Below are positions 5,411 to 56,334 of a DNA stretch of 64,000 nucleotides, in pieces (within the stretch, counting starts at the first letter, position 1; every line of letters begins with the position of its first letter). The notes beneath the pieces were generated by a model that had not been told where the DNA came from, made no database searches, and was given only the letters and a program-made list of their open reading frames with translations. Both the position numbers and the translations under genes were made by a program. Source of the DNA: Mycobacterium sp. UM_CSW. GTDB taxonomy: Bacteria > Actinomycetota > Actinomycetes > Mycobacteriales > Mycobacteriaceae. Location: NCBI RefSeq assembly GCF_000455205.1, contig NZ_AUWQ01000031.1, positions 1 to 64,000 of the forward strand, read 5' to 3'.

Positions 5411-5500
5411 GTGTGCATTCACGGCTTTGAGTGTGAGTCCACGGTGCAGATTTCGCGGATCTACCGCCGCCCACATGCACTCAAAGCCGTGGGTTCACAC
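5411..5500. repeat. long inverted repeat between convergent genes
   Basis: The arms CACGGCTTTGAGTG (5420-5433) and CACTCAAAGCCGTG (5478-5491) are perfect complements. The match extends imperfectly to 5411 and 5500 (about 22 of 25 positions). A third copy of the GTGTGA-TCCACGG half lies at 5431-5444 inside the loop. It sits between the ATL gene and the convergent gene ending at 5519, so it could serve as a bidirectional terminator. The internal extra copy looks more like a small repetitive element. Confidence 0.75.
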
Positions 5501-5518
5501 TCAAGCGTGTGACTAAGG

Positions 5519-6373
5519 CTAGAGCACCAGCCGGACCAGGGCCGCCGTGCGGGCCAGGCCCGGGAACGCCTCGGCCGTCGACCGCGGGTGCAGCGCATGC
5601 ACCGCCAAGCGAAACATCAAGGCCCGCAACAACATCTGCGGCCACTCGGGCAGCGCGTTCCAGCGTTCGATGAGCCCGTCGTCGGCCTCGCCCCAGGACA
5701 GCGCGTCGACAACGACGACACCCGCCGCCCACGAGGCGGGCCGCCAGTAAGGGGTGATGTCGGTGATGCCCGGCGCCGCGGTTCCGATGAAAAGCACTGT
5801 GCCGTAAAGGTCTCCGTGGACCAGCTGGTTGGGACTCTTGGTCGGCTTGCGCAGCGTGGCGAGCTGGTTGATGAGCTCGACCGACTTCTCGGCGTCCGAC
5901 GACGGCGGTGCCGTGCGCGCGCCCGGCGGCACCGACGCGAGCGGCCGTTCTTCCCACGCGGCCCGGTCGGCGGCGATGAAGACGTCGACGTCGCCCCACG
6001 GCGCGGTCGGGCCCTGGGTCAGGAAGCGGGGGCGTTCCAGCTTGCCGGTCGCCTCGTGCAGGCGCACCGCCGCCGAGACGACCTCGTCATGCCGCGGCTC
6101 GGGCGTCCCCGCAACGAAGGTGTCGGCCCGCCACCCGGACACCACGTAGCGCCCGTCGGTGGAGCGAACCGGCCGGGCCAGCCGGACGCCGTCGACGAAC
6201 AATGTCTCGCGCACCCGGGCCGACCAGGCCGCGCGGGCGTGGTCGGCGACGATCGACAGCACGACCTCGCCGCACCGCCAGCCGCCTTCCCAGCTTGCCC
6301 CCAGCGGGATTGGCTTCACGCCCGTCAAACCAAACGCCGCCAGCACATGCTCCGGCGGTGGCTCGACTGTCAC
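5519..6373 (-). CDS. phosphotransferase-fold conserved protein (TIGR02569-like)
   Basis: 284 residues from GTG (MTVEPPPEHVLAAFG). The fold resembles aminoglycoside/choline-type phosphotransferases: LVHGDLYGTVLF recalls the catalytic HGD loop and GITDITPYW recalls the metal-binding loop. In the actinobacterial family recalled here (Rv3205c, TIGR02569) the motifs are degenerate: the HGD loop lacks the usual Asn and the second Asp motif is DITP. Enzymatic activity is therefore uncertain. It lies downstream of moeZ on the same strand with 36 bases between them, so it may share its transcript. Confidence 0.8.
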   Translation of the reverse strand: MTVEPPPEHVLAAFGLTGVKPIPLGASWEGGWRCGEVVLSIVADHARAAWSARVRETLFVDGVRLARPVRSTDGRYVVSGWRADTFVAGTPEPRHDEVVSAAVRLHEATGKLERPRFLTQGPTAPWGDVDVFIAADRAAWEERPLASVPPGARTAPPSSDAEKSVELINQLATLRKPTKSPNQLVHGDLYGTVLFIGTAAPGITDITPYWRPASWAAGVVVVDALSWGEADDGLIERWNALPEWPQMLLRALMFRLAVHALHPRSTAEAFPGLARTAALVRLVL

Positions 6374-53176: not shown

Positions 53177-54457
53177 TCAGGCGGCCAGGTCGTCCCTGCG
53201 GCCCTGCTTCGCTTCCTTCTTGGCGCGCCGCCAATCCCGCACGGTGGCGATCGCGGTCTTCAGGCCGCGCCGGCGTCCGGTCGCCGGGTCGGTGCCGGCG
53301 AAACCGGGCTCCAATTCGGCGAACATCCGCTCGCTGCGCGTCTCCGGCGCGTTGTCGGCGTCGTCGCGCAGGTACTTGTTCGGCAGCGACAGCTTGGCCA
53401 GCGTGCGCCACGTCTTGGCGTACTGCACCAGGAAAGAGCCCGTGGTGTAAGGCAAGTCGTACTTGTCGCACAGCGCGCGCACCCGGACAGAAATCTCGTG
53501 CAGCCGGTTGCTCGGCAGATCGGGATACAGGTGGTGCTCGATCTGGTGGCACAGGTTGCCGCTCATGAACCGCAGCGCGGGGCCGGCCTCGAAGTTGGCG
53601 CTACCCAGCATCTGGCGCAGGTACCACTGGCCCTTGGTCTCGCCGATCATGTCGGTCTTGGTGAATTTCTCTGCGCCGTCGGGGAAGTGGCCGCAGAAGA
53701 TCACGGCGTTCGCCCAGACGTTGCGGATGATGTTGGCGACCGCGTTGGCCGTCAGCGTGGACCGATAGGTCGCGCCGGGCGACAGCGCGGTCAGCGCCGG
53801 GAACGCGACGTAATCCTTGACGACCTGACGGCCGGCCTTGGCGAGAAACTCGTCGATGCGTTGCCGGGCGTCGTCGTTGTCCATCCGCTTCTTGACGATC
53901 TTGCCCAATTCCACGTGCTGCAGGCCGACGCCCCACTCGAAGAGCAGCGCCAGCATGGTGTTGTAGAACAGGTTCAAGACGTTGAAGCGCTTCCAGCGCT
54001 GATCCCGGGTGACGCGCAGCAAGCCGTAGCCGACGTCGTCGTCCATCCCGAGGATGTTGGTGTACTTGTGGTGCACGAAGTTGTGCGTGTAGCGCCAGTG
54101 CTTGGACGACCCGCTCATGTCCCACTCCCACGTCGAGGAGTGGATCTCCGGGTCGTTCATCCAGTCCCACTGGCCGTGCATGACGTTGTGGCCGATCTCC
54201 ATGTTCTCGACGATCTTGGCCACGCCCAAGGTCACGGTGCCGGCCCACCACGCCGAGCGGCGCGAACTGGCGGCCAGCAGCACGCGGCCGGCCACCTCCA
54301 GCGCACGCTGCGCGGCGATGGTGCGACGGATGTAGCGGGCGTCGCGCGCCCCTCGAGAGTCTTCGATGTCCTGGCGGATGGCATCCAGCTCAACGGCCAG
54401 GCTTTCGATGTCAGCGTCCGTCAGATGGGCGAATACGTCGACGTCTGTGATTGCCAC
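53177..54457 (-). CDS. desA3: stearoyl-CoA delta-9 desaturase DesA3
   Basis: 426 residues. The three His boxes of membrane acyl-CoA desaturases are present: GHNVMHG, HNFVHHK and QIEHHLYP, giving the di-iron site. DesA3 (Rv3229c) inserts the 9,10 double bond of oleoyl-CoA at the membrane, using electrons from the reductase encoded just upstream. Palindromic sites lie 50 bases before its start, separate from those before the reductase gene. Confidence 0.95.
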   Translation of the reverse strand: MAITDVDVFAHLTDADIESLAVELDAIRQDIEDSRGARDARYIRRTIAAQRALEVAGRVLLAASSRRSAWWAGTVTLGVAKIVENMEIGHNVMHGQWDWMNDPEIHSSTWEWDMSGSSKHWRYTHNFVHHKYTNILGMDDDVGYGLLRVTRDQRWKRFNVLNLFYNTMLALLFEWGVGLQHVELGKIVKKRMDNDDARQRIDEFLAKAGRQVVKDYVAFPALTALSPGATYRSTLTANAVANIIRNVWANAVIFCGHFPDGAEKFTKTDMIGETKGQWYLRQMLGSANFEAGPALRFMSGNLCHQIEHHLYPDLPSNRLHEISVRVRALCDKYDLPYTTGSFLVQYAKTWRTLAKLSLPNKYLRDDADNAPETRSERMFAELEPGFAGTDPATGRRRGLKTAIATVRDWRRAKKEAKQGRRDDLAA

Positions 54458-54495: not shown

Positions 54496-54531
54496 ACCTA
54501 CGCTATCGTAACCTACGAATCCGTAGGTTAC
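54496..54531 (-). promoter_or_regulatory. operator-like array upstream of desA3
   Basis: ACCTACG at 54496-54502 and again at 54511-54517 (15-base period). The second forms a perfect 10-bp dyad GTAACCTACG/CGTAGGTTAC (54508-54517 and 54522-54531). The same arrangement stands before the reductase gene at 55763-55793. Repressor unknown. Confidence 0.8.
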
Positions 54532-54544
54532 CTGTGAGTAATCT

Positions 54545-55759
54545 TTAAATGTCGAGCACGCAATCGCCGGACGCGGCCGACACACAGGTCTGAATCCGGG
54601 TTCCGGGCTCGTGTTCGGCGCCGGTTCGCAGATCGCGGACGTGCCCGTCCACCAGGCTTACCACGCAGGACTGGCAGATACCCATCCGGCAGCCGAAGGG
54701 CATCTGCACACCCGCCCCCTCGCCGGCATCCATCAACGGCGTCGCTCCGTCGGCCGCGACGGCGCGCCCGCTGCGCGCGAACGTCACCGTGCCGCCGGCT
54801 CCGGCAGGCGCGGCCTTGGACACGGCGAACCGCTCCAGGTGCAGCCGGTCGCCGATGCCCGCCGCCGACCACACCTTCTGCGCTTGGTTGAGCATGCCCT
54901 CCGGCCCGCAGGCCCAGGTCTGCCGCTCACGCCAGTCCGCGACCTGTTGATCCAGGGCGGCCAGGTCGAGCCGGCCCTGCTTGCGGGTCTCTCGCACCTG
55001 CAAGCGGTAGCCCGGCTGGTTGGCGGCCAGCGCGCCCAGCTCGGCGCGGAACATCACGTCGGATTCGGTGGGCGCCGAATGCAAATGCGTGACGTCACCA
55101 ATCTGGTTGCGGCGCACCAACGTTCGCAGCATCGACATCACCGGCGTTATCCCGGAACCGGCGGTCAGGAACAGGATCGACGACGGCGCCGGGTCCGGCA
55201 GGACGAAGTTGCCCTGGGGCGCGGCCAGCCGCACGATGGTCCCGGGCTCGACGCCGGCCACCAGGTGGGTGGACAGGAAACCCTCGGGCATCGCCTTGAC
55301 GGTGATGGTCACCGTGCGGGGCGAGCCGCTGGTCTCGGCCGGGCTCGAGGTCAGCGAATACGACCGCCACCGCCAGCGCCCGTCGACGAGCAGCCCGATC
55401 CCGATGTACTGGCCGGGCTGATAGTCGAAGCTGAAGCCCCAGCCCGGTTTGATCACCAGGGTCGCGGAATCCTCGGTCTCGCGGCGGACCTCGAGGACGC
55501 GGCCCCGCAGTTCCCGCGCGGACCACAGCGGGTTGGCCAGATGCAGGTAGTCATCGGGCAAAAGCGGCGTCGTGATCCGCGCGGCGAGCTTGCGTAGCGC
55601 GTGCCAGCCGGGGTGCCGCTCGGCGCCGGCCACAACGGGTCGCTTGGTGTCGACGACGTTGCCCCTGATCGATGGGTTACGTCTGCCCAGCGGAAGCTCC
55701 TGCTCACTAGCCGGCGTCTGGCTTACGCCCAACATTGTCGCCGATTCTGTGCGCTCCAC
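54545..55759 (-). CDS. DesA3 partner reductase (FAD/NAD(P)H, 2Fe-2S ferredoxin)
   Basis: 404 residues from GTG at 55759; an ATG at 55735 ([12 protein letters not shown]) gives 396 and leaves more room from the operator. FAD site [16 protein letters not shown](P) site [16 protein letters not shown], ferredoxin domain [20 protein letters not shown] and late Cys (TCVS). It passes NADPH electrons to DesA3; H37Rv homologue is Rv3230c. Confidence 0.92.
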
Positions 55760-55762
55760 GAA

Positions 55763-55793
55763 ACCTACGGTAGCGTAACCTACGGTGTCGTAG
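55763..55793 (-). promoter_or_regulatory. operator-like array upstream of the reductase gene
   Basis: ACCTACG at 55763-55769 and 55778-55784, then CGTAG at 55789-55793. The spacing (15, then 11) equals that at 54496-54531. The palindrome is less perfect (CGTAGCT instead of CGTAGGT). Confidence 0.75.
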
Positions 55794-55821
55794 CTAGTCG
55801 GAATCCGTCACATTCGGCGCG

Positions 55822-56334
55822 TCAGAGCAGGTCAAGCAGGAACGGCAACTCCTGGTTCGCATACCAGGCCAGGTCGTGGTCCAGCGCGTCGCCGACGATC
55901 AGCTCGGCGTCCTCGTCGCCCAGGTCGGCGGCGTCGATGATCTCGATGGCCCGGATGACGTCCGGCTCGGCGGCGGCGTTGTCGACGTAGGCGGCGACGA
56001 CCTGGTCGAGCGTGACGGGGGCGCCGAGGCGCACGACGGCGTCGTCGAGGTCGGGACGGAACTTGGCCTCCTCGACCTCGGCGGCCAACACCGCCCGCCG
56101 GGGCGGCAGGCCGGTGTCGGCTCCCCCGGCGTCCTGGGCCGCGAGCAGTCGCAGCGACGCCAGCGCCGCCTCGCGCAGCGCCACGTCGGCGAGCTCGTCG
56201 TCGTCGCCCTCGGCGTAGGCCTCGCGCAACGTCGGCGTCACCGCGAACGCGGTGCCGTTGACCGGCCAGACGGAGCCCTCGGCGACGAGCCGCTGCAACA
56301 TCTCCAGGGTGGCCGGGATGTAGACCTGGATCAT
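55822..56334 (-). CDS. DUF6912 family protein
   Basis: 170 residues (MIQVYIPATLEMLQRLV). Alternating helices with an acidic character (EGDDDELADV, DLGDEDAELIVGD); no transmembrane segment or catalytic motif. Homologue of Rv3231c. Its ATG overlaps the ppk2 stop by one base (TGATG), so it is coupled to ppk2. Confidence 0.85.
   Translation of the reverse strand: MIQVYIPATLEMLQRLVAEGSVWPVNGTAFAVTPTLREAYAEGDDDELADVALREAALASLRLLAAQDAGGADTGLPPRRAVLAAEVEEAKFRPDLDDAVVRLGAPVTLDQVVAAYVDNAAAEPDVIRAIEIIDAADLGDEDAELIVGDALDHDLAWYANQELPFLLDLL

Follow-up and report, generated by a model that had tools for sequence, protein, structure and literature searches.

Each of two adjacent genes in Mycobacterium sp. 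UM_CSW, the membrane fatty acid desaturase gene desA3 and the gene for its reductase, is preceded by an array of overlapping palindromes built to the same design. We consider it likely that the two arrays serve as operators for a repressor of the TetR family that would control desaturase and reductase together; this repressor is most likely the Rv1019 orthologue. Both arrays lie in a window of 64,000 nucleotides, the whole stretch of DNA analysed here. Mycobacterial membranes are supplied with oleate made by DesA3 together with its reductase, and how this synthesis is controlled has so far been described only in part. A link from Rv1019 to the Rv3230c-Rv3229c operon is already in print, as given in the accessible part of the source; the motif, the separate operators and the wider regulon described below were not found in the open-licence literature that we searched.

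On the minus strand the reductase gene comes first and the desaturase gene follows (Table 1). By protein family and gene order we regard the pair as orthologous to the one named Rv3230c-Rv3229c, fnr1-desA3 or MSMEG_1885-1886 in the available part of PMC9861118. Directly upstream of the reductase gene a small protein is encoded, which has no match in NCBIfam; similar frames were seen by eye at the same place in other genera (e.g., L154, L160).

The sequence-only reading had described each array as two direct repeats and one inverted repeat, arranged with the same geometry in both. Direct reading of the sequence confirmed this geometry exactly, with every element in place and steps of 15 and then 11 bases in both arrays. 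The description of the repeats was corrected, as a fourth half-site, CGTA, had been overlooked in each array. Because this half-site is present, each array consists of two overlapping palindromes, with cores CTACG-N4-CGTAG that start 15 bp apart. A dyad-symmetric tandem site, AACCTACG-N4-CGTAGGTT, with a 15-bp period and located at promoters, has the form of a multi-palindrome operator of the TetR type. Only the desA3 array of the two in the window has a third, degenerate palindrome in the same 15-bp register, and its TAC and GTAA columns are conserved in 78-80 of 80 relatives' loci. A FasR-like element considered upstream of desA3 is better explained as this third palindrome, and an IdeR-like box, considered by eye, was set aside. 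In some other genera overlapping double matches formed triple arrays.

Table 1 Genes, operator elements and predicted promoter elements in the window (positions in nucleotides)
Feature	Position	Strand	Remarks
desA3, membrane fatty acid desaturase	53177-54457	-	PF00487
Desaturase reductase gene, Rv3230c/fnr1-like	54545-55759	-	FAD, NAD and 2Fe-2S domains; start codon provisional
desA3 array, half-sites ACCTACG	54496-54502, 54511-54517		Read directly
desA3 array, inverted half-site CGTAGGT	54522-54528		Read directly
desA3 array, fourth half-site CGTA	54507-54510		
desA3 operator, proximal palindrome core	54498-54511	-	TTACG-ATAG-CGTAG on the minus strand; contains the predicted -10 hexamer
desA3 operator, distal palindrome core	54513-54526	.	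CTACG-AATC-CGTAG; full AACCTACG-N4-CGTAGGTT
desA3 operator, third degenerate palindrome core	54528-54541	.	TTACC-TGTG-AGTAA; 15 bp beyond the distal one
desA3, predicted -10 hexamer TACGAT	54505-54510	-	Predicted from the TAnnnT spacer constraint
Reductase array, half-sites ACCTACG	55763-55769, 55778-55784		Read directly
Reductase array, inverted half-site CGTAGCT	55789-55795		Read directly
Reductase array, fourth half-site CGTA	55774-55777		
Reductase operator, proximal palindrome core	55765-55778	-	TTACG-CTAC-CGTAG on the minus strand; contains the predicted -10 hexamer
Reductase operator, distal palindrome core	55780-55793	.	CTACG-GTGT-CGTAG
Reductase gene, predicted -10 hexamer TACGCT	55772-55777	-	Predicted; read by hand
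Small protein upstream of the reductase gene	55822-56334		

The spacers of the palindromes suggest where the promoters lie. Among arrays scoring at least 15 of 20, the proximal spacer read NTAN in all 77 reductase arrays and in 71 of 79 desA3 arrays; the distal spacer was free, with NTAN in 6/77 and 0/79, respectively. The constraint in the proximal spacer produces TACGNT, a predicted -10 box of the TAnnnT form within the proximal palindrome. The -10 box thus seems to be embedded in the operator, which suggests that each gene has a promoter and is repressed through promoter occlusion. That each gene has its own promoter, as had been proposed from the sequence, is supported by the presence of the -10-like TACGNT at both genes and by separate complementation in M. 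kansasii: the available part of PMC9861118 describes complementation of fnr1 mutants and of desA3 mutants, each with expression from the predicted promoter region of the gene concerned.

The arrays are rare in their own genome. ACCTACG-N(6-10)-ACCTACG occurred twice in the window and was absent from 100 dinucleotide-preserving shuffles. When the genome (6.39 Mb, 186 contigs) was scanned for the complete tandem pattern, allowing three mismatches at most, as the sequence-only reading had suggested, all five rows obtained came from these two arrays and the reversed-pattern control gave 0 matches, showing that the double site is not scattered at random over the 6.39 Mb. When the single palindrome was allowed no more than one mismatch over its 14 letters, one further place was found (C33:42340), immediately upstream of an alpha/beta-hydrolase gene; this gene comes after a katG-like gene (katG by eye). 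Among the listed places with two mismatches, C23:85638 precedes an acyl-CoA dehydrogenase-like frame whose 482 open codons run up to the edge of the piece examined. Stronger sites were found at both gene types in other genomes of the genus (hydrolase, L139 and L148; acyl-CoA dehydrogenase, L138, L144 and L147). Once as many as three mismatches were tolerated, the single pattern did no better than chance in the own genome (173 matches per strand vs 220 for the control).

We then compared relatives, scoring the two palindromes together out of 20 in the 80 reductase-orthologue loci listed, several of which come from one species. A score of at least 16/20 was obtained before desA3 in all 80 loci and before the reductase gene in 76 (the misses being L064, L072, L075 and L076), and nowhere else among the ~676,000 positions of these loci. 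The best-scoring register lay one repeat off in L069 and L071. The claim that one factor acts before both genes is strengthened by this result, because both promoters retain the same architecture in almost every one of the 80 relatives; absence of the motif before these genes in close relatives, which would have spoken against it, was not what we observed. Over wider samples, and among the matches listed, the double pattern with up to two mismatches was present in 140 of 148 genomes of the genus (reversed-pattern control, 29/148) and in 178 of 201 genomes of the family, representing 28 of 31 genera (control, 29/201). Since the reversed control also matches in 29 genomes of each sample, some of the double-pattern matches must be due to chance. 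Chance double matches of 17/20 do occur genome-wide, and all nine weak double matches L346-L354 lacked both a 14/16 palindrome and a listed gene.

Which protein binds the arrays? No regulator gene was consistently found beside the sites in the loci examined, and a regulator gene adjoining the sites was set aside as an explanation, since no TetR gene is consistently adjacent. Single TetR neighbours occurred next to an ABC transporter gene in L159 and in L280, and downstream of one desA3 in L166. A census of TetR proteins in two g3 genomes, G243 and G199 (22 and 15 matches; 30 of the 37 proteins examined), gave pairs with more than 60% identity of four kinds: two that we take to be AcnR-like and AmtR-like, the L218/L219 type, and a neighbour of glmU or mfd, a position that is presumably that of Rv1019. 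The last is most likely the regulator, and we call it Rv1019-type on the basis of the glmU/mfd synteny; in UM_CSW its gene lies outside the window, on another contig (C106:39490-40086).

The distribution of this TetR follows that of the operator. It was present in all 26 genomes that had a double-pattern match and were tested. An array at desA3 or at the reductase gene, in several cases a degenerate one accepted at 16/20, was found in 25 of the 31 desA3 genomes that have the TetR vs none of the six that lack it, the six coming from five genera and including one genome that is 72% complete (Fisher p 4e-4; 4e-3 once the 72%-complete genome and one of the two from g8 are left out; as the genomes are related, p is only a guide). 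Kept outside this table were G148, G163, G167, G177 and G185, in which the TetR is present and the match is not at desA3, and G075, in which the TetR is present and desA3 is broken. Around the desA3 copies that we examined, out to 1.5 kb, no array was detected in six TetR-bearing desA3 genomes: two of them (G332 and G164) are complete, three (G106, G032 and G189) are 91-93% complete, and G025 is 80% complete with less than 1.5 kb available. The TetR was retained without desA3 in seven of 15 g3 genomes tested, six of the seven having no double match, suggesting that it has other jobs. At the promoter of the TetR gene itself and at mfd no site was found in 25 loci of ~3.6 kb each (best, 12/16); a site there would be expected if these genes were themselves direct targets, but an operator at desA3 and the reductase gene does not require one. 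Rv1019 is said, in the available part of a citing text, to act on the neighbouring mfd. It also reportedly regulates the Rv3230c-Rv3229c operon negatively, in the accessible part of the work of Pushparajan et al. (doi 10.1111/febs.16647). As far as that part goes, the known system and ours have in common an orthologous regulator candidate, the same gene pair and negative regulation.

It is unlikely, in our estimation, that another TetR (e.g., the L218/L219 type of the two g3 genomes) is the factor. The palindrome size is generic for TetR proteins, and the census extended to two g3 genomes, with 30 of the 37 matches examined; however, the profile of the Rv1019 type fits that of the operator, including the absence of both from G297 and the presence of both in G278 of the same genus, and independent work, in its accessible part, names Rv1019.

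The solved structures closest to the candidate TetR, 6o6p and 6o6n, carry the title TetR family regulator; they align over nearly the full length (E 1e-23), and the recognition helix, SKPV(L/V)Y(Q/E)HF, is near-identical in the candidate and the FasR structure. Both entries are presumably FasR, on the basis of PMC7382501. FasR, the acyl-CoA-responsive TetR regulator of fas-acpS, might itself bind the arrays, and the CGTAG half that they have in common with the FasR crystal oligonucleotide TACCCGTACGTAGAACTCGCCAGTA points in this direction (PMC7382501, in the part available). In addition, a desaturase-type double site precedes type I fas in one g3 genome (G243; L149, ~5497-5531, also L171). However, a palindrome of at least 13/16 was found only in L171 among 22 fas loci, L182 and L184 reaching 12/16, and the fas promoter of the own genome has no palindrome of 11/16 or better. 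The motif common to the three Mycobacterium fas promoters examined differs in half-site and spacing, and its FasR-type form GTTACCCG-NN-CGTAGAAC is absent from the two arrays. Term searches of the available text of PMC7652896 and PMC5356441 returned no mention of desA3. On these grounds we rejected FasR as the main factor, and consider its binding to the arrays quite improbable. FasR resembles the proposed system in being its closest solved structure, in its acyl-CoA effector and in the CGTAG of its DNA, but, according to the part of PMC7382501 available, differs in being an activator with another operator spacing and another target. The double site in L149 and the weak 12/16 palindrome before fas in L184 (a g16 genome) suggest that fas has been captured into the regulon. 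The three Mycobacterium fas promoters (own genome/L169, L183 and L185) have GTTACCCG-NN-CGTAGAACT...CAGTAACC, which comes near the FasR crystal oligonucleotide.

It is very improbable, we think, that a two-component regulator such as TrcR drives both genes through the arrays: desA3 and Rv3230c are ChIP-Seq targets of TrcR cited in PMC11895460, and CO2 induces both genes according to the available part of the same paper, but dyads with a 4-bp spacer over a predicted -10 box would be more in keeping with a repressor than with an activator of the response-regulator type. MadR, which regulates desA1/desA2, is like the candidate in belonging to the TetR family, responding to acyl-CoA and controlling desaturases, but was rejected for its different motif: its consensus TCTGTGxxxxxxxGT is absent from both arrays as read, and desA3 is not raised by madR deletion in the part of PMC8872791 available.

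Sites of this type occur before a small set of other genes. We examined 114 regions around sites in other genomes (15 extra genus sites, 20 family sites, 55 from 20 genomes in 14 genera, and 24 others) among the matches listed. Of the 116 site clusters scoring at least 14/16, 109 lay at the start of seven gene groups: DesA3 (33), HlyIII with or without cis-prenyltransferase (22), soluble acyl-ACP desaturase (20), the reductase (18), a PlsC-like acyltransferase (11), acyl-CoA dehydrogenase (fadE, 3) and alpha/beta-hydrolase (2). All 65 clusters of 15/16 or 16/16 were assigned to these groups, and the seven outside them all scored 14/16 (L264, L274, L340, L341, L342, L344 and L345). Random positions in the same loci satisfied the gene-group rule in 420 of 5700 cases. 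As the reference proteins were chosen from genes beside the sites, the 109/116 says that few gene groups cover nearly all sites. The 13 loci without a cluster of at least 14 were nine chance loci and four with weaker sites (L138, L149, L150 and L160). In some genomes of the genus (L137, L140, L145 and L146) the site-bearing soluble acyl-ACP desaturase gene and a Rieske-type oxygenase-like gene, recognised by eye, are divergently oriented. L274 and L340, from two g28 genomes, have the same site sequence, AACCTACCCTGCAGTAGGTT, and no listed lipid gene; in L274 it precedes a FAD-dependent dehydrogenase-like frame.

The same switch before a few membrane-lipid genes in mycobacteria and their relatives looks like shared control of membrane unsaturation. 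We tentatively suggest, at somewhat less than even confidence, that an ancient Rv1019-type TetR runs a membrane-unsaturation regulon throughout the family (presumably Mycobacteriaceae in the broad sense) that comprises the desaturase and reductase, the soluble acyl-ACP desaturase, the phospholipid acyltransferase, the cis-prenyltransferase and HlyIII/PAQR. With an operator in most genera of the family, the single reported regulator-target link becomes a testable regulon with base-precise promoter predictions, and the tie between an HlyIII/PAQR gene and desaturation allows a direct test of whether bacterial PAQR proteins take part in membrane homeostasis. In animals PAQR-2/AdipoR2 promote desaturation against membrane rigidity, as described in the available part of the literature; if the family-wide reading is true, bacterial HlyIII would share this physiology and the little-understood HlyIII family would gain a function.

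The mechanism that we think likely is that two dimers, perhaps three at desA3, bind the tandem overlapping palindromes 15 bp apart and cover the -10 box and the stretch just upstream at each promoter, so that RNA polymerase would be blocked. Release, probably by long-chain acyl-CoA, would then switch on desaturase and reductase together; in other species the soluble desaturase, HlyIII/PAQR, cis-prenyltransferase and PlsC-like acyltransferase might be released too, adjusting membrane unsaturation. Acyl-CoA as the ligand is a reasonable guess from the FasR relative. The earlier suggestion that the arrays balance the two enzymes with membrane fluidity or acyl-CoA level is consistent with the site-bearing genes and with FasR as the closest solved relative, its effector part being a guess. 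DesT of Pseudomonas, which controls a desaturase and its reductase, and FabR of enterobacteria are also TetR repressors, and both determine how much unsaturated fatty acid is made; the likeness to the candidate system is one of regulatory role.

In the 3.3-Mb genome G075 a relic, TTACGATAGCGTAG, persists 442 bases ahead of the aligned part of the broken desA3 (L328); as this part begins at residue 127, the relic lies ~60 bases before the expected gene start, which is the distance seen for the proximal palindrome.
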